The notes under the pieces are model-generated. The model saw only the letters and a list, made by a program, of their open reading frames with translations. It searched no databases and was not told the origin of the DNA. The translations under genes were made by a program, and so were the position numbers. Shown here piece after piece: positions 8,483 to 28,325 of a stretch of 47,928 bases of DNA; position 1 is the stretch's first letter; each line of letters begins with the position of its first letter. Source of the stretch: Candidatus Omnitrophota bacterium (lineage in GTDB: Bacteria > Omnitrophota > Gorgyraeia > Duberdicusellales > 4484-171); the NCBI GenBank assembly GCA_023135905.1, contig JAGLSE010000055.1, positions 1-47,928 on the forward strand, read 5' to 3'.

Positions 8483-9196
8483 CTATACATTGTATATCTG
8501 TCCTACTTTTACGGAAATAAACTTTCTTCCATAATATTCTTTAAAAATCATCTGCGCATCATATCCTGTACAATGAGTAGGCCCAACTTTTTCAACACCC
8601 ATATTTTTAAGTTTTTCCGCTATAATATTTACCTCACGTTTATCTTTATCCATTAAATGGAATCCGCCAAAAACAAGTTTTATTCTTTTCTTTGGAAATT
8701 TTTCATTAACTTTCTCCATAATTCGTAAAATCCCTGGATGAGAACAACCAGTTATTACAATAATATCATCTTTATTCTCAACCACAAGAGCTTGTTCTGC
8801 TATATAACTGTCTTTATAGTTACCAGCAATCTCACCAGTAACAAAAACATTATCACTCAATTTAGTAAACTTTTCAGTTTCTATAAGTTTTCCTTGAAAT
8901 TCTCTAACCTTATCTTTAAATTCGGAACTGAAATTTGGACAAGCATATACTTTAATCCCGCTTTTTTTCTTTAACAATTCCCATAACCCATTGGTATGAT
9001 CCCAGTGATGGTGAGAAATAACTACTGTTTTTATATCTGCCGTATCAATATCCATACCTATTAGGTTATTGAATAGATATTCTGCCTTTTCTCCGGTATC
9101 AAACAAAATGTGTTTACCCACCAAACAAGAAAATCCCCAACCTGTTGAGAATTTCATATTTACAGAATCCTTATCAAAAATAATTTTTAATTCCAT
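8483..9196 (-). CDS. MBL-fold metallo-hydrolase
   Basis: 'SHHHWDHTNG' metal motif, 'TGCSHPG', 'VFGGFHL', 'GPTHCTG'. Confidence 0.85.
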   Translation of the reverse strand: MELKIIFDKDSVNMKFSTGWGFSCLVGKHILFDTGEKAEYLFNNLIGMDIDTADIKTVVISHHHWDHTNGLWELLKKKSGIKVYACPNFSSEFKDKVREFQGKLIETEKFTKLSDNVFVTGEIAGNYKDSYIAEQALVVENKDDIIVITGCSHPGILRIMEKVNEKFPKKRIKLVFGGFHLMDKDKREVNIIAEKLKNMGVEKVGPTHCTGYDAQMIFKEYYGRKFISVKVGQIYNV

Positions 9197-9411: not shown

Positions 9412-10308
9412 TTATTTCAACTTTTTAATATGATGATATTTTAGAATAACATCCCCAAGTTTACACCCCACATCTTTGGCTATCACCGGACACTTTGCTA
9501 TAAATAAAAAGAATATGGGCCTTTTAGGTTGAGATAAGGCCTCAAAATTACCCTGTCCTTTACTAATAACCATATCTGTCTTTCTGTAAATTTTTAAAAA
9601 TTTATTGGAACATAAAGAAAGAACGGTTCCAGGAGAGTCGACACCGCTTGAAATAACTTGAGCATTTTTTTCTATGCCGCATGCAAAAGCATCTTCCATT
9701 AAAGCGTCATTAATAACCGGTTTTTCTTTAACCGCATAAATTATTTCTTTGGTTTCATCGATTCTTTTTATTTCTTCAATCAAAATTCGGTCAAATACTG
9801 TTTCACCCGCGTTATCCGCTAAGTAAAGTATAGTTCTTGACTGCTTTAAAACTTGTTTAAATTTCTCATAATCAAATATTGTTTTATTCTCTTTTTTAAT
9901 TGCTTTAGTTTCCGCATTAAGAATTTTGGCTAATTCATCATCAACATTTAAAGAATTTTTCGCTCCGTAATCAATAATATTGCCCGCGATAGCTAACTCA
10001 ACCGCTATCAATAACCTATCAGAAGAATGTAATACTTTTCTTTTTAAATGATCATAAATATTTAGCGCTAATCGGTTACTGTCCTTCTTTATTTGCGCGT
10101 AAATATCATTATTTTTTGTTATCTTTTGCAAGATACGATTAATAACACGCGCTATTTGAGGAGGAGAAGCATTTAAAGAAATTTTTGGAATTTGACGAGC
10201 AACTTCATCCAAAATTATTTTTTGTTTTCTTTTACTCGCCCCGGCAATTCTGCCTGATTCTAAGGCTTGTTTAAAAAAGCAAGGTATACAATCCAAATAA
10301 GTTTTCAT
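9412..10308 (-). CDS. DUF89/ARMT1-like damage-control phosphatase family protein
   Basis: N-terminal 'CIPCFFKQALESG', 'YLADNAGETVFDRILIEEI', 'ISKGQGNFEAL'. Confidence 0.85.
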   Translation of the reverse strand: MKTYLDCIPCFFKQALESGRIAGASKRKQKIILDEVARQIPKISLNASPPQIARVINRILQKITKNNDIYAQIKKDSNRLALNIYDHLKRKVLHSSDRLLIAVELAIAGNIIDYGAKNSLNVDDELAKILNAETKAIKKENKTIFDYEKFKQVLKQSRTILYLADNAGETVFDRILIEEIKRIDETKEIIYAVKEKPVINDALMEDAFACGIEKNAQVISSGVDSPGTVLSLCSNKFLKIYRKTDMVISKGQGNFEALSQPKRPIFFLFIAKCPVIAKDVGCKLGDVILKYHHIKKLK

Positions 10309-19085: not shown

Positions 19086-19760
19086 TTACTTGTCTTGAAG
19101 CTTTTCGGGATGATGCTTTACAACTCTGGACTGGACCATATAAATAACATCTTCGGCAATATTTGTAGCATGATCACAAATTCTCTCTAAATGACGAGCA
19201 ATTAAAAAAAGTGAGATTGCCTGAGGAGCAGTTATGCAATCTTTCATTATATAACCATTTATTAATTCATCACATATTAGATTTTTCAATTTATCAGCTT
19301 CAGGATCTAAAAGAATAGCCCTTTTTGCTAAATTTCCATCACGATTAACAAAAGAGTCTATCACGTCTTTTACCATTCTTCTAGCAACTGCGGCCAATTT
19401 TGGAATATCCTTTAAAGGTTTAAGTTGCGGTTTATCAGCCAATTCAAAAACTTGTTGGGCAATATTTACAGCAAGATCCGCTATTCGCTCCAATTCAGCA
19501 TTTATCTTCATTCCCGTTGTAATAAACCTAAGATCTCTAGCCATAGGTTGACGCAACGCTAAAAGGTTAATTGATTTTTCCTCAATTTCAAGCTCCAACT
19601 CATCAATATTACGGTCTTCATTAATTATATCTTTAGCTAACTTTTTATCTTGATTTTTCAAGGATTCTATAGACTTATAAATCGCAGCTTCAGATAATGT
19701 TGCCATTTTTAAAAGCGCCTTTTTTAATTCTTTCAGTTCTTCATCAAAATGTCTCTCCAT
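19086..19760 (-). CDS. phoU: Phosphate transport system accessory protein PhoU
   Basis: 224 aa PhoU: 'MERHFDEELKELKKALLKMATLSEAAI', 'ERICDHATNIAEDVIYMV'. Confidence 0.95.
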   Translation of the reverse strand: MERHFDEELKELKKALLKMATLSEAAIYKSIESLKNQDKKLAKDIINEDRNIDELELEIEEKSINLLALRQPMARDLRFITTGMKINAELERIADLAVNIAQQVFELADKPQLKPLKDIPKLAAVARRMVKDVIDSFVNRDGNLAKRAILLDPEADKLKNLICDELINGYIMKDCITAPQAISLFLIARHLERICDHATNIAEDVIYMVQSRVVKHHPEKLQDK

Positions 19761-19782
19761 TATTCACCTCCTTTTATTAAAA

Positions 19783-20601
19783 TTATCCAAATCTTCCGGT
19801 AATATAATCCTCAGTAGTTTTTTTAGAAGGAGCGGTAAATATTTTATCGGTTTTATCAAATTCTATTAACTCCCCCAACATAAAAAAAGCTGTAAAATCT
19901 GAAATACGCGCTGCTTGCTGCATATTATGAGTAACAATAACTATGGTATATTTTTTCTTTAATTCTTGAATAAGCTCTTCAATCTTTGCGGTAGCCGTCG
20001 GGTCTAAAGCAGAACAGGGTTCATCAAAAAGGACTACCTCCGGCTCAACTGCCAAGGCCCGGGCAATACATAAACGCTGCTGTTGGCCTCCGGATAAATC
20101 CAGTGCTAAACTATCCAACCTATCTTCAACTTCTTTCCAAAGTGCGGCATCTTTTAGGCTTCTTTCAATCTTCTGCTCGAGATAATTTTTATCTTTTATT
20201 CCGTTCACCCTTAACCCGTAAGCGACATTCTCAAATATCGACTTAGGAAATGGATTGGATTTTTGAAAAACCATACCGATTTTTCTTCTTATTTCTACAA
20301 CATCGACATCTGTATCATAAATATTCTTTTCATCTAGTAAAATTTTTCCTTCTATTCTCGATTTCAAAATAACATCATTCATACGGTTCAAACTGCGTAA
20401 AAAAGTCGATTTTCCACAGCCTGAAGGCCCTATAATAGCAATGACCTTGTTTTTCTCAATACTGAGATTTATATTCTTTACCGCATGCACTGCCCCATAC
20501 CAAATATTTAAATTTGTAGTACTCATTTTAAACCTTTTCAGAAAAGTAAGGTCTCTATTCCTCCTTTCTGCATAATCCATATTTATAGCCATTTTTACCA
20601 T
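19783..20601 (-). CDS. pstB: Phosphate ABC transporter ATP-binding protein
   Basis: Walker [47 protein letters not shown] ahead of 20601. Confidence 0.95.
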
Positions 20602-21449
20602 TTTTGCCTCCTCCTGAATCGATTACGCATAATAATAGCAATACAATTTATACCTAAAACCAAAAAAATCAAGACTAATGCTGTGCCATACGCTATAGGC
20701 ACTTGAGCCTTAGGATGCACTCCTTCTGTCATAAGAGCATATATATGATATGGTAGCGCCTGCACCTCATTAAAGATTGAACAGGGAAGTTTTGTAGTAT
20801 AAAAAGCGGCGGCTGTAAAAAGTATAGGTGCGGTTTCACCAGCAGCCCTGCCAATACCCAGTATTGAACCGGTTAACATCCCCGAAACAGCATTAGGAAG
20901 CACTACCTTAAAAATAGTCTGCCATTTAGACGCTCCCAAAGCCAAAGAAGCCCAGCGAAATGAATGAGGAACTAACAATAACGCTTCCTCAGAAGAACGA
21001 ATGATTGTTGGCAGAATTAATATTCCCAAGGTAAGACCGCCTGAAAGAATAGATATACCAAAACCAAAGAATTTAACAAAAACCGCTAATCCAAAAAGCC
21101 CAAATACAACCGAAGGAACCCCGGCAAGATTGCTTACACCAATACGAATTATTCTTATCAGTTTCCCTTGTTTTGCATACTCGGTTAAATATATTGCCGC
21201 AGCCACTCCCAAAGGAAAAGCAAAACAAATCGCGCACATAGTCAGATAAAATGTGCCTAAAATTGCGGGTAAAATCCCCCCGGCAGTCATTCCTGAATGC
21301 GGCATTTGAGATAAGAATTGCCAGTTAACTACTTTTATACCCCTAATAACAATAAAATAAAGGATGGCAAAAAGTGCTAACAGAATGATTATTGTGGCTA
21401 ATCTTACAATCCCAAAACCTATAAATTCTTTAATCTTTCTCAGTCTCAA
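20595..21449 (-). CDS. pstA: Phosphate ABC transporter permease
   Basis: PstA-type permease; '[42 protein letters not shown]'; overlaps pstB and pstC. Confidence 0.93.
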
Positions 21450-22324
21450 CGTAATCTTCTCCTGAATCTTTGAGATAGAAAATCCGCAATAATATTAAAG
21501 GTTAAAGTCATCAGAAAAAGGACTATGGCAATAGCAAACAAAGCATGGAAATGTTCTCCTCCTACAACCGTTTCTCCCATTTCCGCTGCAATAGTAGCTG
21601 TCATCGTACGCACAGGCTCAAAAAAAGAATGCGGAATAACAGCTGCTCCCCCGGCAACCATCAGCACAGTCATTGTCTCACCCACTGCTCTACCCATACC
21701 TAAAATAATGCCAGTACTTATTCCTCCCATAGCAGCGGGCAGAGTTATTTTAACTGTAGTCTCCCATCTATTCGCACCCAAAGCGTAAGAAGCCTCCTTA
21801 AAACTTTCCGGAACTGCCGAAATTGCGTCCTCTGAAACACTGGTAATCGTGGGAATGGCCATAACGCCTAACAGGATCGCGGCAGTAAAAGCATTCAGTC
21901 CTACAGGTAAACCAAAAAAATTCTGAACTAAAGGCGCCAAAAAAACCATTCCAAAAAAACCATAAACGACAGAAGGAACCCCAGCAAGAAGCTCTATTAG
22001 CAATTTTACAAATTCTTTTCCTTTAGGATGAGCAACTTCTGAAATATAAATAGCTGAAGCTACTCCTAACGGAACAGAAATAATCAATGCCCCTACGGTG
22101 ACCATAAGAGAACCTAAAATTAAAGGCAGCATTCCAAAATCTGCAGGCTCATAAGTAGGATACCAAAATTTACCAAAGAAAAGTTTTCCGAAAGATATCA
22201 CGTTAAAGATAGGCAATCCTTCTTTAAACAATACTATTACTATTCCTAAAAGAAAAAGAATAGAACATAAAGAAAGTCCGCAAAAAAATCCTTGGATTAA
22301 ATTTTCTTTTTGTCTTCTTTTCAT
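21446..22324 (-). CDS. pstC: Phosphate ABC transporter permease
   Basis: PstC-type permease '[47 protein letters not shown]'. Confidence 0.93.
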   Translation of the reverse strand: MKRRQKENLIQGFFCGLSLCSILFLLGIVIVLFKEGLPIFNVISFGKLFFGKFWYPTYEPADFGMLPLILGSLMVTVGALIISVPLGVASAIYISEVAHPKGKEFVKLLIELLAGVPSVVYGFFGMVFLAPLVQNFFGLPVGLNAFTAAILLGVMAIPTITSVSEDAISAVPESFKEASYALGANRWETTVKITLPAAMGGISTGIILGMGRAVGETMTVLMVAGGAAVIPHSFFEPVRTMTATIAAEMGETVVGGEHFHALFAIAIVLFLMTLTFNIIADFLSQRFRRRLR

Positions 22325-22458
22325 AAATTATTTTTCACTGCTTTTAGCTTAATACTTAAATTAATAAAAATTAAAATTTTACTATTCAATATCAATAAAT
22401 TAGCACAATCTAAATCCAATCTGTGTAATCAAATTCTTTATAAGCCTTTCAATAAAAA

Positions 22459-23271
22459 TTAGTCTAAAGAAACGAACCCCTGCTTCTTAATTATTTTCTG
22501 TCCCTCCATGCTTAAGACAAATCTGATAAAATCCTTAACTAATCCCTTTGGTTTGCCATCAGTATACATAAATAACGGCCGGGAAATAGGGTATGTATTT
22601 TTTAACACAGTTTCAACTGAAGGTTCAATACCTTGGACAACTAAAGCCTTAACCTCCGAGCATAAATATCCTAAACCTACATAACCGATAGATCCTTTTG
22701 TTCTAGTAACTGTTGATGTCACAGCCATATTCGAAGCTTGAAGTAAGGCATCCGGACGTACCCGTTGTTTTTTTAACGCTATTTTACTGAAACATTCGTA
22801 TGTTCCTGAAGCAACATCTCTGGAAATTACTATTATCTTCTGATTATCGCCGCCGAATTGACTCCAATTCGATATTTTGCCGGTATAAATATCTTCGATT
22901 TGGCTAAGAGAAAGTCCATTAACCTGATTAGACGGATGGACAATCACTGCAATCCCATCCATGGCAACTACATGAGCTATTGGATCGATTCTTCTATCTA
23001 TTGCTTTGTTAAGTTCTTTATCCTTTATCGGCCGTGAAGAATCAGCAATATCGCATATTCCGTCAATTAAAGCGGCTATACCTGTTCCGGAACCTCCACC
23101 TCGAACACTAATATCCACTCCTGGATGTTTTTGTGAAAACATCTCAGCACACTTCTGCGCTATAGGTAAAACCGTGGTTGAACCCTGAATAACAAGCGAG
23201 TTATCTTCCGCATAAACAGATTGTATTGCTCCGAAAATAAACAATGCACATATTGAAATTATTTTTTTCAT
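22459..23271 (-). CDS. pstS: Phosphate-binding protein PstS
   Basis: 'IQGSTTVLPIAQKCAEMF...GGGSGTGIAALIDG'; start at MKKIISICALFIFG signal peptide (23271) with GAGGAGG. The ORF-track start at 23322 overlaps the Pho-box array. Confidence 0.92.
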   Translation of the reverse strand: MKKIISICALFIFGAIQSVYAEDNSLVIQGSTTVLPIAQKCAEMFSQKHPGVDISVRGGGSGTGIAALIDGICDIADSSRPIKDKELNKAIDRRIDPIAHVVAMDGIAVIVHPSNQVNGLSLSQIEDIYTGKISNWSQFGGDNQKIIVISRDVASGTYECFSKIALKKQRVRPDALLQASNMAVTSTVTRTKGSIGYVGLGYLCSEVKALVVQGIEPSVETVLKNTYPISRPLFMYTDGKPKGLVKDFIRFVLSMEGQKIIKKQGFVSLD

Positions 23272-23315
23272 CTTATGATACCTCCTCAATTTCATAATTA
23301 TTTTAATATTCCATT

Positions 23316-23355
23316 GTGACAATCGTGTTACAATTTAGTTAAGATTAAGTAAAAT
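23316..23355 (-). promoter_or_regulatory. Pho-box array upstream of pstS
   Basis: Plus-strand 7-mers GTGACAA(23316), GTTACAA(23327), GTTAAGA(23338), GTAAAAT(23349): exact 11-bp steps. Confidence 0.8.
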
Positions 23356-23363
23356 CGTAACCT

Positions 23364-24608
23364 TTAAAATTTGACTTGCCAATCAACCTGCACAACATGT
23401 TTTCTATTACTATCGCCGGTAATTCTCGTCATATAATAATAATCAAAACCGAGAGTAGCATTTTTTCCCAGACCATAGGTAAACGCAACTTCATGACCTT
23501 TTGTGTCAGTATACCCACTATACGCGTCTGAATCCGGGAATATATCTATCCAAGCATCTTTTTCTAAATGTCTATACATATACTTAGCTTGCCATTGCCT
23601 CCAATCCTTAACTTTTTTCGCTCCAAACTTAATACCACCTAAATACCCCTTATTTTTTTCTGATGGATCCATGTTATAAACATAATCACCAAAAATAGCC
23701 AAGTAAGGAACTAAACCTCCTAAAGGTTTTTTGATTCCAAACTCAAAACTCGGTGCTACGGAGTTATAATCGTATTTTAGTCCGCCCCTTTCCAATGTAT
23801 TGTAATATCCGCTACTCTTTGAGCCTCCATTATTCAAACTAGTTCCTTTGATGTTTTCAAAAAAATAACCGGCAACTGCTATTTTCAAACAAGTACTCTT
23901 ATTGAAACTATATTTCATCCCCGGTTGAACCACCCACATAAACGAATCTGAAGTATCACTACTTGATTCATCCAGTATCCAAACTCCCGTGTTCATAAAC
24001 CAATCAGTATTATTTTCCCTTTTACTCAGTAAGATAGATACACCTTCAGGATTTATATCAGAATCCCAGAGGAGATCAGACGGACGAAATATTAATTTCT
24101 TTATACCTTTTATCTTACCGGCTTTAAAAGTTACCCCGGGCGCCGCTACAAATTGAGCGTAAGCATAATCTAATTTAATATCCTCAGTAGAAAAACCATC
24201 ATCCATAGTCTGATTAGTTGAACGGGCATCATCACCACCTGTGGCAAGCCCCGCAGCCACTTTCATCGTATCATTTACTTTTGATTCCAACCCTAATCTG
24301 AAACGATAACGGCTTCGATGCCTTTCTTCAGAGCCGAGCTTGTCTTCCCATTGATAGCGCAGCCTAAAATCACCATTGAGTTTAGTGTTCTGCACCCATT
24401 TTGGCAAGCCTTCCAGCGTCCCTTTCGCTAAATCCTTTCTTATTTCTTCTTTTGTTTCTGTCAAGATGACCTGTGCTTCACCTGAAGAAAGAATCCCCTT
24501 ATCTACCAACTTATCTACAAGAATATCGATTTCACCGGCGAAAAGCAGCGATGAATTTAAAAAAGCTGACAATATTCCAAAAAACAAAACAAAAAAAATC
24601 TTCCTCAT
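23364..24608 (-). CDS. Putative outer-membrane porin
   Basis: Signal peptide, 'LVDKGILSSGEAQVI' segment, 'LNGDFRLRYQWED' and alternating beta strands to C-terminal '...VQVDWQVKF'. Confidence 0.8.
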   Translation of the reverse strand: MRKIFFVLFFGILSAFLNSSLLFAGEIDILVDKLVDKGILSSGEAQVILTETKEEIRKDLAKGTLEGLPKWVQNTKLNGDFRLRYQWEDKLGSEERHRSRYRFRLGLESKVNDTMKVAAGLATGGDDARSTNQTMDDGFSTEDIKLDYAYAQFVAAPGVTFKAGKIKGIKKLIFRPSDLLWDSDINPEGVSILLSKRENNTDWFMNTGVWILDESSSDTSDSFMWVVQPGMKYSFNKSTCLKIAVAGYFFENIKGTSLNNGGSKSSGYYNTLERGGLKYDYNSVAPSFEFGIKKPLGGLVPYLAIFGDYVYNMDPSEKNKGYLGGIKFGAKKVKDWRQWQAKYMYRHLEKDAWIDIFPDSDAYSGYTDTKGHEVAFTYGLGKNATLGFDYYYMTRITGDSNRKHVVQVDWQVKF

Positions 24609-24621
24609 TTCGACTCCTCCT

Positions 24622-24834
24622 TTAATTATTCAAATAAAGTTTTCTAGCCTGACGCAATTCTTTTTCTACTCGATTCAAAAATTCTTTCACGTAAGAACCT
24701 TCAATCCTGCCCGAATTTTCAATTGTTTCCAATACGCCTCGTAAACTTACAAGTTGAGAACGCAAAAAACTTGCTACGAAATCCTTCTGCAGACTTGACA
24801 TCATTTTTACATTGTTCATGTTATTTTTTTTCAC
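24622..24834 (-). CDS. Small conserved-looking helical protein upstream of porin
   Basis: 70 aa ORF co-directional 13 nt upstream of porin; GGAGG ahead. Confidence 0.5.
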   Translation of the reverse strand: MKKNNMNNVKMMSSLQKDFVASFLRSQLVSLRGVLETIENSGRIEGSYVKEFLNRVEKELRQARKLYLNN

Positions 24835-25016
24835 CTCCTTTTCGTCACATATTTTTTCTTATTCATCAATATATCTAAAACTTCAACCAAAGTCTTTTCG
24901 CGCATGCCATACGAAAAAAATCCCATCACCGTTAAACAAATTAAACTATCAAAAATAAAACAATTTTCATTTTCTTTTCTTCAAGTATAATCTACAATGT
25001 ATCTGTGTAAAAAAGA

Positions 25017-25643
25017 TTACAGACACGTAAATTCTTTGTGAACATTCATTTTATTTTTAAGCGAATCTTTTACCTTAATTACAAGTTCAGCTACACTAAA
25101 AAGCTTAATAGCATAATCATCGGCATCTAACCGCATACCTTTATCTATATTCATTTTCAAAGTCTTAGCGCTTAAGATAACTAACAGAATATGAGACATC
25201 CTCATATTTTTCTTTATACGCCTTAGAACCTCATACCCATGAAGCACAGGCAGCATAAGGTCTAAAATTATCAAATCAGGATTTACCAGGTTTACTAAAT
25301 TAAACGCTTCTCTTCCATCAAGAACACCTATTTCCCTATTCAGAGTTTTCATTAATTTAGAAACATTCTTTTTTAACTTAACCTGTATTCCAACTTTTTT
25401 AAAAAGCTGTTTTTTAACCTTACCTGTATAATCTGAGTCATTAGTAATAAGGTAAGCTAATTCTCCACCCAGGGGAGTGATGTTTCGTTTTCTCACTTCA
25501 GCAAGTTTTCTTTCAAACTCTTCCTCGCTAATTCCAATTTTTTCACTCAAAAAAACTCCTGAATCGTTAAAACTTAGAGTCTTATCGAAATCACAAATAA
25601 ACAAGTATTCTTTCATATTTGAATTTTTAATATTTTTTTTCAT
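25017..25643 (-). CDS. Chimeric protein: truncated HAD phosphatase-like N-terminus fused to receiver domain lacking beta1
   Basis: N-half 'YLFICDFDKTLSFNDSGVFLSEKIG..GGELAYLIT'; C-half 'PDLIILDLMLPVLHGYEVLRRIKK...LSAK...DADDYAIKLFS'. Confidence 0.75.
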   Translation of the reverse strand: MKKNIKNSNMKEYLFICDFDKTLSFNDSGVFLSEKIGISEEEFERKLAEVRKRNITPLGGELAYLITNDSDYTGKVKKQLFKKVGIQVKLKKNVSKLMKTLNREIGVLDGREAFNLVNLVNPDLIILDLMLPVLHGYEVLRRIKKNMRMSHILLVILSAKTLKMNIDKGMRLDADDYAIKLFSVAELVIKVKDSLKNKMNVHKEFTCL

Positions 25644-25670
25644 TTCACATTAAAAGTATATAATTCTAAT

Positions 25671-25710
25671 GTGAAGAAAAAATTACAAGAAAGTGAATTC
25701 TTAGTGAATT
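25671..25710 (-). promoter_or_regulatory. Pho-box array upstream of HAD/receiver chimera
   Basis: Plus-strand 7-mers GTGAAGA(25671), ATTACAA(25682), GTGAATT(25693), GTGAATT(25704): exact 11-bp steps; candidate -10 TATACT at 25655-25660. Confidence 0.75.
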
Positions 25711-25743: not shown

Positions 25744-27516
25744 TTAAGCCTTAGGGATGGTAAAACTAAAAGTGGAACCTTGACCTAATACGCTCTGGAC
25801 ACTAACTTTTCCGTGATGAACTGAAACGATGTGTTTGACAATAGAAAGACCAAGACCAGTTCCGCCTAACTCACGGGAACGGGCTTTGTCAACGCGATAA
25901 AAGCGTTCGAAAAGCCGGGAAATGTCTTTTTCCGGAATACCAATACCTGTATCAGAAACATCTACTAGTATAAATTCACCTTGATCCGTCGCCGATATTA
26001 AAATTTTTCCTTGATCGTTAGTATATTTAACCGCGTTATCTATAAGATTTAATAAAACTTGCGCGATTCTATTTTCATCAGCCTTAATACGCGATATATT
26101 TTTTGGAATATTTATATTAATAGTAAGTAATTTAGCTTTTGCCTGAATTTCCAATCCGGAAACAACACGCCGAACAACCAGATCGAGAACACACGGCTTT
26201 AAAGCTAAATTAAGCTTATCTGATTCTATTCTTGATAAATCTAAAAGGTCATTAATCAATTTCGCCAGTCGGTCAGAATCAGAATGAATTATTTTTAAAA
26301 ATTCTTTAGCATTTTCTTTATCACCTAACGCTCCGTCTAATAAGGTTTCAGCATAACCTTTAATACTAGACACAGGTGTCCTCAATTCATGAGAAACATT
26401 CGCGACGAAATCTTGGCGAATATTTTCCAGCCGCCTCAAATTAGTTATATCATGAAATACCAAGACCGCCCCTTCAGATTTACCCTCTCGAAGAATGGGA
26501 GCAGCATTCACTAATAAAATTTTTTCTTCGGGAACCAGAATAGATATTTCACAAGATTTAACACCTTTCTTTAATTTTAAAACTTTATCAGCAATCTCTT
26601 GAATTTCAATATTACGTATCACCTCAAGAGGCCTTTTACCCTCGAACTCTTCTTTGACACACAAAAAATTTTTCAAAGGTTGATTCATTAATAAAACTAC
26701 CCCTTTAAAATCAATAACCATAACACCCTCAAACATACTCAAAAGCACAGCTTCTAATCTTGATTTGTTTGCTGTAATCTTTTGTACTCGCAACCTAATT
26801 TGCTCTGACATAAAATTAAATGACTTAGCTAAATCACCTATTTCATCATCAGAAGTAATGAAAATTTTTTTCGAAAAATTGCCCTGTGCTATTTCTTTAG
26901 ATATTAATGATATTTCCCGTATTGGCTTTGAAATAAAAATTGAAGATAAAAAACTAATTAAGATGGTTATTGCGAATGCCACTAAAAAAGAAATAAGAAG
27001 AAGTTTTTTTAACCTATTAGAAATCAGCTCTACTTCTAAAAGAGGAATGGATAAACGAATAATCCCCCTGGTGTCATTATTTCTAAATATTGAAGCAATA
27101 TAAATAAAATCTTTTTTAATAGTAGTGCTGAATCGCCTGCTTTCACCAATGCCCGACAGAAGGGCCTGTTGAACTTCAGGTCTGTAAATATGATTCTCAA
27201 TATTTATAAGCTCATCTGCTTTGAGTTCTGAATCACCGTAAACAGTGCCATCTATACCAATAATAGTTACTCTTAAATCTAAATCACTGCTAATTGTATC
27301 AGCTATATCATCTAAATAATAGGATGAGCTATTCTTTAGAGTAATATCAGTTAGATATGATTTACATAATTTGATTTGTTTAGTGACATTTATTTTTATC
27401 CGATTATATGTATATTCCTTAAGATTAACACGCAGGTAAAAAAATACACCCAAAAGAATAGTAGCACTGGTTGTAATAAAAATAAATGTAATTTTATGCT
27501 GAATGTTTATCCTCAA
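25744..27516 (-). CDS. phoR: Sensor histidine kinase (PhoR-like: TM, HAMP, PAS, HisKA, HATPase)
   Basis: 'FVANVSHELRTPVSSIKGYAETLLDGAL', 'DNAVKYT', 'DTGIGIPEKDI', 'GGTGLGLSIVKHIV'. Confidence 0.9.
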   Translation of the reverse strand: MRINIQHKITFIFITTSATILLGVFFYLRVNLKEYTYNRIKINVTKQIKLCKSYLTDITLKNSSSYYLDDIADTISSDLDLRVTIIGIDGTVYGDSELKADELINIENHIYRPEVQQALLSGIGESRRFSTTIKKDFIYIASIFRNNDTRGIIRLSIPLLEVELISNRLKKLLLISFLVAFAITILISFLSSIFISKPIREISLISKEIAQGNFSKKIFITSDDEIGDLAKSFNFMSEQIRLRVQKITANKSRLEAVLLSMFEGVMVIDFKGVVLLMNQPLKNFLCVKEEFEGKRPLEVIRNIEIQEIADKVLKLKKGVKSCEISILVPEEKILLVNAAPILREGKSEGAVLVFHDITNLRRLENIRQDFVANVSHELRTPVSSIKGYAETLLDGALGDKENAKEFLKIIHSDSDRLAKLINDLLDLSRIESDKLNLALKPCVLDLVVRRVVSGLEIQAKAKLLTININIPKNISRIKADENRIAQVLLNLIDNAVKYTNDQGKILISATDQGEFILVDVSDTGIGIPEKDISRLFERFYRVDKARSRELGGTGLGLSIVKHIVSVHHGKVSVQSVLGQGSTFSFTIPKA

Positions 27517-27518
27517 AG

Positions 27519-28208
27519 CTAATCCTCATCGCTGAAGCAATAACCGATACCTCTTACTGTTTCGATTGACTTCCCTGTTTTGCCTATTTTTTTTCTAAGA
27601 CGCTTTATATGAGTATCTATGGTACGTGTTGTAACATCACTAGACATATCCCAAACATCTTCGAGCAAGGTATCTCTTGATTGAACCCTGCCTTTTCTTT
27701 TGATAAGAGTAACTAAAAGCTTAAATTCGATCTTAGTTAATGTTATTTCTTTTTTATCAACAATCACTTTATAGCGAGGGATATCCACTATTATTTTACC
27801 AACACTTAAGACTTCTTTGTCTTTCGTGTTCAGTTTGCCACGCTTCAATATAACTTTTACTCGAAGAATAAGTTCTCTAGGACTAAAAGGTTTTACAACA
27901 TAGTCATCTGCCCCTAGCTCAAAGCCAACAACCTTATCTACTTCCTCACCTTTAGCTGTAAGCATTATAATGGGGATACTCGATAACTTAGTTTCTTGCT
28001 TTATATGCCGACACATTTCAAAACCATCCATTTCAGGAAGCATAATATCAAGGATGATTAAATCAAATGATTCACGGTCTAAAACTTCCAAGGCAGCTTC
28101 ACCAGTTAGAGTTGCAACACAATCAAAACCCGCCTTTTCTAAATTGTACTTAACAAGCTTCGAAATATTTTTATCATCCTCAACTACAAGGATTTTCTTT
28201 CTAGCCAT
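27519..28208 (-). CDS. phoB: OmpR/PhoB-family response regulator
   Basis: Receiver 'KILVVEDDKN..LDIMLPEMDGFEM..LTAKGEE..DDYVVKPFSP' plus winged helix 'TTRTIDTHIKRLRKKIG'. Confidence 0.9.
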   Translation of the reverse strand: MARKKILVVEDDKNISKLVKYNLEKAGFDCVATLTGEAALEVLDRESFDLIILDIMLPEMDGFEMCRHIKQETKLSSIPIIMLTAKGEEVDKVVGFELGADDYVVKPFSPRELILRVKVILKRGKLNTKDKEVLSVGKIIVDIPRYKVIVDKKEITLTKIEFKLLVTLIKRKGRVQSRDTLLEDVWDMSSDVTTRTIDTHIKRLRKKIGKTGKSIETVRGIGYCFSDED

Positions 28209-28285: not shown

Positions 28286-28325
28286 ATGAATTTCACGTTA
28301 CAGTTATGTGACTTTTTTGTGAACT
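28286..28325 (-). promoter_or_regulatory. Pho-box array upstream of phoB
   Basis: Plus-strand 7-mers ATGAATT(28286), GTTACAG(28297), GTGACTT(28308), GTGAACT(28319): exact 11-bp steps. Confidence 0.8.

Follow-up and report, generated by a model that had tools for sequence, protein, structure and literature searches.

The gene described here has its closest counterparts in three known systems: HAD-IB phosphatases (TIGR01488, phosphoserine phosphatase-like), single-domain response regulators (PF00072), and fusions formed by deletion between adjacent genes. It lies in a stretch of 47,928 nucleotides from a Candidatus Omnitrophota bacterium (contig JAGLSE010000055.1), the whole of which is referred to below as the window, and consists of an open reading frame (ORF) of 208 amino acids on the minus strand (25017-25643) in which the front of a HAD-IB phosphatase (residues 1 to 105) is joined to the back of a receiver (residues 104 to 198). 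The front of this chimera is ∼84% identical to the full-length HAD-IB phosphatases of two relatives, here designated G073 and G180, with motif I and the cap kept, but motifs II, III, and IV have been deleted. The back is 64 to 73% identical to the adjacent receivers of G073 and G180 and retains the phosphoacceptor aspartate and the LSAK motif of single-domain response regulators; unlike them, it lacks beta1, alpha1, and the acidic pair and has altered KLF and DADDY motifs. Like deletion fusions of adjacent genes, the chimera is an in-frame join of tandem genes at a short direct repeat in one lineage, with nothing notable to set it apart except an intact promoter. Nothing on this particular fusion was found in the literature. 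The chimera is very probably a deletion fusion of two adjacent genes associated with Pho promoters, and a recent, non-functional remnant rather than a novel type of signaling protein, although we infer both its recency and its loss of function.

The chimeric gene is part of a locus in which all genes are on one strand in the order phoB, phoR, chimera, orf70, phosphate-type porin, pstSCAB, and phoU. Based on synteny, a phoB-type response regulator was assigned to positions 27519-28208, a phoR-type sensor kinase to 25744-27516 upstream of the chimera, the small conserved protein orf70 to 24622-24834, and the phosphate-type porin, pstS, pstC, pstA, pstB, and phoU to 19086-24608 (all minus strand). 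Translation of the chimera might begin at an internal start, Met10 (25616), which coincides in the alignment with the start position of the relatives. The C-terminal tail (residues 199 to 208 plus the stop codon; 25017-25049, minus strand) is mostly (NVHKEFTCL and stop) read from a downstream Pho-box array, and the receiver gene of G073 has the same kind of ending (NLTKS and stop), encoded by its own downstream array copy. Orf70, for which no Pfam family scored above the cutoff, comes after phoR or after the HAD-receiver pair in several relatives. PstC and PstA of the window (20595-22324) are 82% identical to those of G180, a member of another family (L145:11469-13239), and mostly only about 58 to 63% identical to those of members of the window's own order, a pattern not seen for phoB. 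It is possible that pst genes have been exchanged between families.

The original prediction described a HAD start with a DFDKT motif that halts before motif II and is joined to the back of a receiver, and Pfam together with alignments to full-length relatives confirmed this composition. The HAD-derived half (residues 1 to 105; 25329-25643, minus strand) was not recognized by Pfam alone. Compared with the N-terminal part of full-length HAD proteins from other genomes, it shows 51 to 82% identity, and its nearest full-length relatives are HAD-IB family phosphatases (TIGR01488, above the curated NCBIfam cutoff). Motif I (DFDKT, residues 18 to 22) includes D18, D20, and T22, all of which are invariant in the relatives. 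The relatives also carry the motif II serine (of SA), a lysine (motif III), and GDGxSD (motif IV); the match to the chimera stops short of motif II, at about residue 105, and none of motifs II (S/T), III (K), and IV (GDGxSD) is present in the chimera. Because motifs II to IV are gone, the chimera is predicted to be enzymatically inactive and should not hydrolyze phosphate esters. A PDB sequence search with the HAD half returned nothing useful. AlphaFold modeled the intact phosphatase only weakly (6 sequences; pLDDT, 62), yet the model matched phosphoserine phosphatases.

The receiver-derived half (residues 104 to 198; 25050-25332, minus strand) extends from the beta2 region to alpha5. Pfam Response_reg matched residues 108 to 191 of the chimera (profile positions 29 to 110 of 111; E value, 8.6e-13), and the match begins only at profile position 29; thus, beta1 and alpha1 are missing. 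The acidic pair, which in intact receiver relatives lies within IVDDE or VVDDE, is also absent. As had been noted from the sequence, the phosphoacceptor Asp (DLMLP) and LSAK are kept. So is the Lys, which is followed by Leu instead of Pro (KPF to KLF), and GADDY has become DADDY. Since beta1-alpha1 and the acidic pair are gone, it seems unlikely that the chimera would take up a phosphoryl group.

Matches in related genomes were of two types: those that stop near residue 103 to 112 and fall inside full-length HAD ORFs, and those that cover the later part of the query only and fall inside receiver ORFs. In two distant relatives, G180 and G073, both types are found side by side after phoBR. G180 encodes a HAD protein of 267 amino acids and a receiver of 137 amino acids whose gene overlaps the end of the HAD gene. 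The HAD protein of G073 has 262 amino acids, and its receiver (147 amino acids) starts 134 bp further on. Identity to the proteins of these two genomes is 84 to 85% for the HAD half of the chimera. The gene order is phoB-phoR-(nucleotidyltransferase and HEPN-like pair)-HAD-receiver-porin-pstSCAB-phoU in G180 and phoB-phoR-HAD-receiver-orf70, up to the end of the contig, in G073. With the HAD-receiver pair at the same locus in relatives, the chimera occupies exactly the site of the intact pair. The original prediction had suggested a search for the junction in related genomes and had named two separate full-length genes in relatives as a result that would speak against it; G180 and G073 carry both genes, in synteny, and the junction was found in no other genome among those searched (42 from the order and draws of 384 each from the class and the phylum). 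A scan of genome contigs returned essentially receivers rather than the fusion. No HAD-receiver-type gene follows phoR in five genomes of the window's own order (G039, G008, G006, G010, and G012), where the next genes are orf70 and the porin, or just the porin. In G038 and G013 a lone single-domain receiver lies between phoR and the porin (L150:7046-7468 and L152:8453-8854). These lone receivers are only about 30% identical to the chimera receiver; free-standing receivers are a recurrent feature of this part of the Pho locus.

DNA matches to the HAD and receiver genes abut at the junction, where they overlap by 6 bases in the comparison with G073 and by 4 bases with G180. The 6-base overlap is AATAGG (25327-25332, minus strand), a sequence common to both parental genes, of which the G073 gene pair has just two copies, one at each breakpoint. 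Random breakpoints share at least 6 bp in about 0.3% of draws. The implied loss is 776 bp with the layout of G073 and about 587 bp with that of G180. To judge from these alignments, the AATAGG overlap is what a microhomology deletion, here of about 0.6 to 0.8 kb, typically leaves behind. The suggestion that the gene might be a recombination product was thus the part of the original prediction on its origin that held, with separate parental genes in G180 and G073 and AATAGG at both breakpoints.

In the proposed sequence of events, phoB-phoR would have been followed in the ancestor by a promoter dependent on PhoB and then by genes for a full-length HAD-IB phosphatase and a single-domain receiver; a further copy of the promoter would have separated these from orf70-porin-pst. 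The two AATAGG copies would then have recombined, or slippage would have occurred between them, with the loss of about 0.6 to 0.8 kb that held the 3′ part of the phosphatase gene and the 5′ part of the receiver gene. The outcome would be one in-frame ORF still under the Pho promoter of the phosphatase.

The two halves of the chimera have diverged unevenly. In the receiver half, 5 of 26 columns conserved at ≥90% are altered, compared with an average of 1.0 and no more than 4 among 35 intact receivers, and in the HAD half none of 38 such columns is altered (Fisher P = 0.009). The receiver losses (P153L, D165N, G173D, P181L, and R190K) are all G:C-to-A:T transitions (C to T or G to A). Decay of the receiver may predate the fusion; alternatively, the HAD half may have been kept. 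Branch dN/dS was low, 0.10 for the HAD half (95% upper limit, about 0.28) and 0.24 for the receiver half, with silent sites near saturation and distant outgroups; the branch includes time before the fusion, which may account for most of it, and therefore cannot date the fusion. Under neutral drift, about 2.4 stops would be expected per 0.1 substitutions per site, and the frame of the chimera is still open, which indicates that the fusion is either young or constrained.

Alternatively, the fusion may have been retained as a stable, receiver-like protein that is independent of phosphorylation, is produced when phosphate is scarce, and interacts with, for example, PhoR or PhoB; in this reading, the HAD strand and the post-cap helix have taken the place of beta1-alpha1. 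The open frame, the low dN/dS, and the unaltered conserved columns of the HAD half are in line with this, as is the AlphaFold model of the chimera, which is compact (pLDDT, 81; pTM, 0.64), with a strand at residues 13 to 16, a helix at residues 89 to 101, and a receiver-like body. Foldseek matched the model to nearly whole receivers (target TM score mostly 0.75 to 0.81), with one CheY match over 193 columns. However, no sequence in the AlphaFold input alignment other than the chimera crosses the junction, and the joint fold therefore reflects fold preference only; the low dN/dS can stem from the time before the fusion; the junction is known from one genome; and the KPF proline and the GADDY glycine are among the conserved residues lost from the receiver. 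The idea that the HAD strand completes the receiver thus agrees with the model at moderate confidence as far as the fold is concerned, but a working phosphorylation site is not expected. A retained structural role is unlikely, and retention of the fusion in general is improbable. Slightly less probable still is the more specific possibility that the deletion made a working Pho-induced, non-phosphorylatable protein that would modulate PhoR-PhoB or Pst, with HAD beta1 and the post-cap helix completing the fold.

That two genes were wrongly joined during metagenome assembly is very unlikely, even though the assembly is fragmented (150 contigs) and the junction was seen once, because the 6 bp of common sequence at the junction fall far short of any overlap or k-mer used by assemblers, and searches of the rest of the genome assembly found neither the deleted HAD portion nor a second HAD copy; in addition, the receiver half has lost conserved residues whose retention would be expected if the gene were intact.

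The chimera is preceded by a Pho-box array (25654-25708, minus strand) with four 11-bp-spaced PhoB half-sites and a TATACTT −10 element. The four half-sites score 20/20, which none of 300 shuffles equaled. The pattern TTCAC-N6-TTCAC-N6-GTAAT has no mismatches at 25682-25708 (minus strand), and the window contains seven matches with ≤3 mismatches, a number reached in 1 of 100 shuffles. The shorter pair TTCAC-N6-TTCAC was rejected as a signal, as it was at chance level genome-wide (77 sites versus 70 in the reversed control); only the longer array, together with its conservation, is informative. The array had been considered private to the chimera. It is real, but not private: copies are present at 25016-25042, overlapping the 3′ end of the ORF, and at 28297-28323, upstream of phoB. 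The first of these belongs to a duplicate promoter (24983-25042, minus strand) ahead of orf70-porin-pst. In the eight other relatives for which the spacer after phoR was inspected, the array there has the same layout. Where the HAD-receiver pair is missing, one array follows phoR; G180, G073, and the window have two, which flank the pair or the chimera. Because the array is conserved after phoR and around the intact pair, it was inherited and is uninformative on selection for the fusion. With separate genes in the relatives and an array inherited from the phosphatase gene and the post-phoR promoter, a selected phosphate starvation function was not substantiated, and PhoB control of the chimera itself is putative.

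These results suggest that one small deletion under an intact promoter can join two alpha/beta-fold genes in frame, and such a fusion could plausibly serve as raw material for a new protein. The more useful lead on phosphate starvation in these little-studied bacteria is the intact pair of HAD phosphatase and lone receiver in the relatives, which is linked to a Pho promoter and flanked by two pst-type promoter copies.

The copies that bracket the pair as direct repeats are 61 bp long and 97% identical in G073 (L146:8134-8194 and 9540-9600) and 116 bp long and 78% identical in G180 (L145:7769-7884 and 9049-9164). This arrangement suggests that the pair may have been inserted or lost by recombination between the promoter copies, or that conversion has occurred between the copies. 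A second HAD-IB-like paralogue of G073 (L146:4694-5482) lies immediately upstream of its phoB and is about 47 to 52% identical to the HAD half of the chimera. In G180, the nucleotidyltransferase and HEPN-like pair, named by eye, is an insertion between phoR and the HAD gene (L145:6511-7682) that comes with a duplication of the phoR 3′ end (30 bp, 83%).
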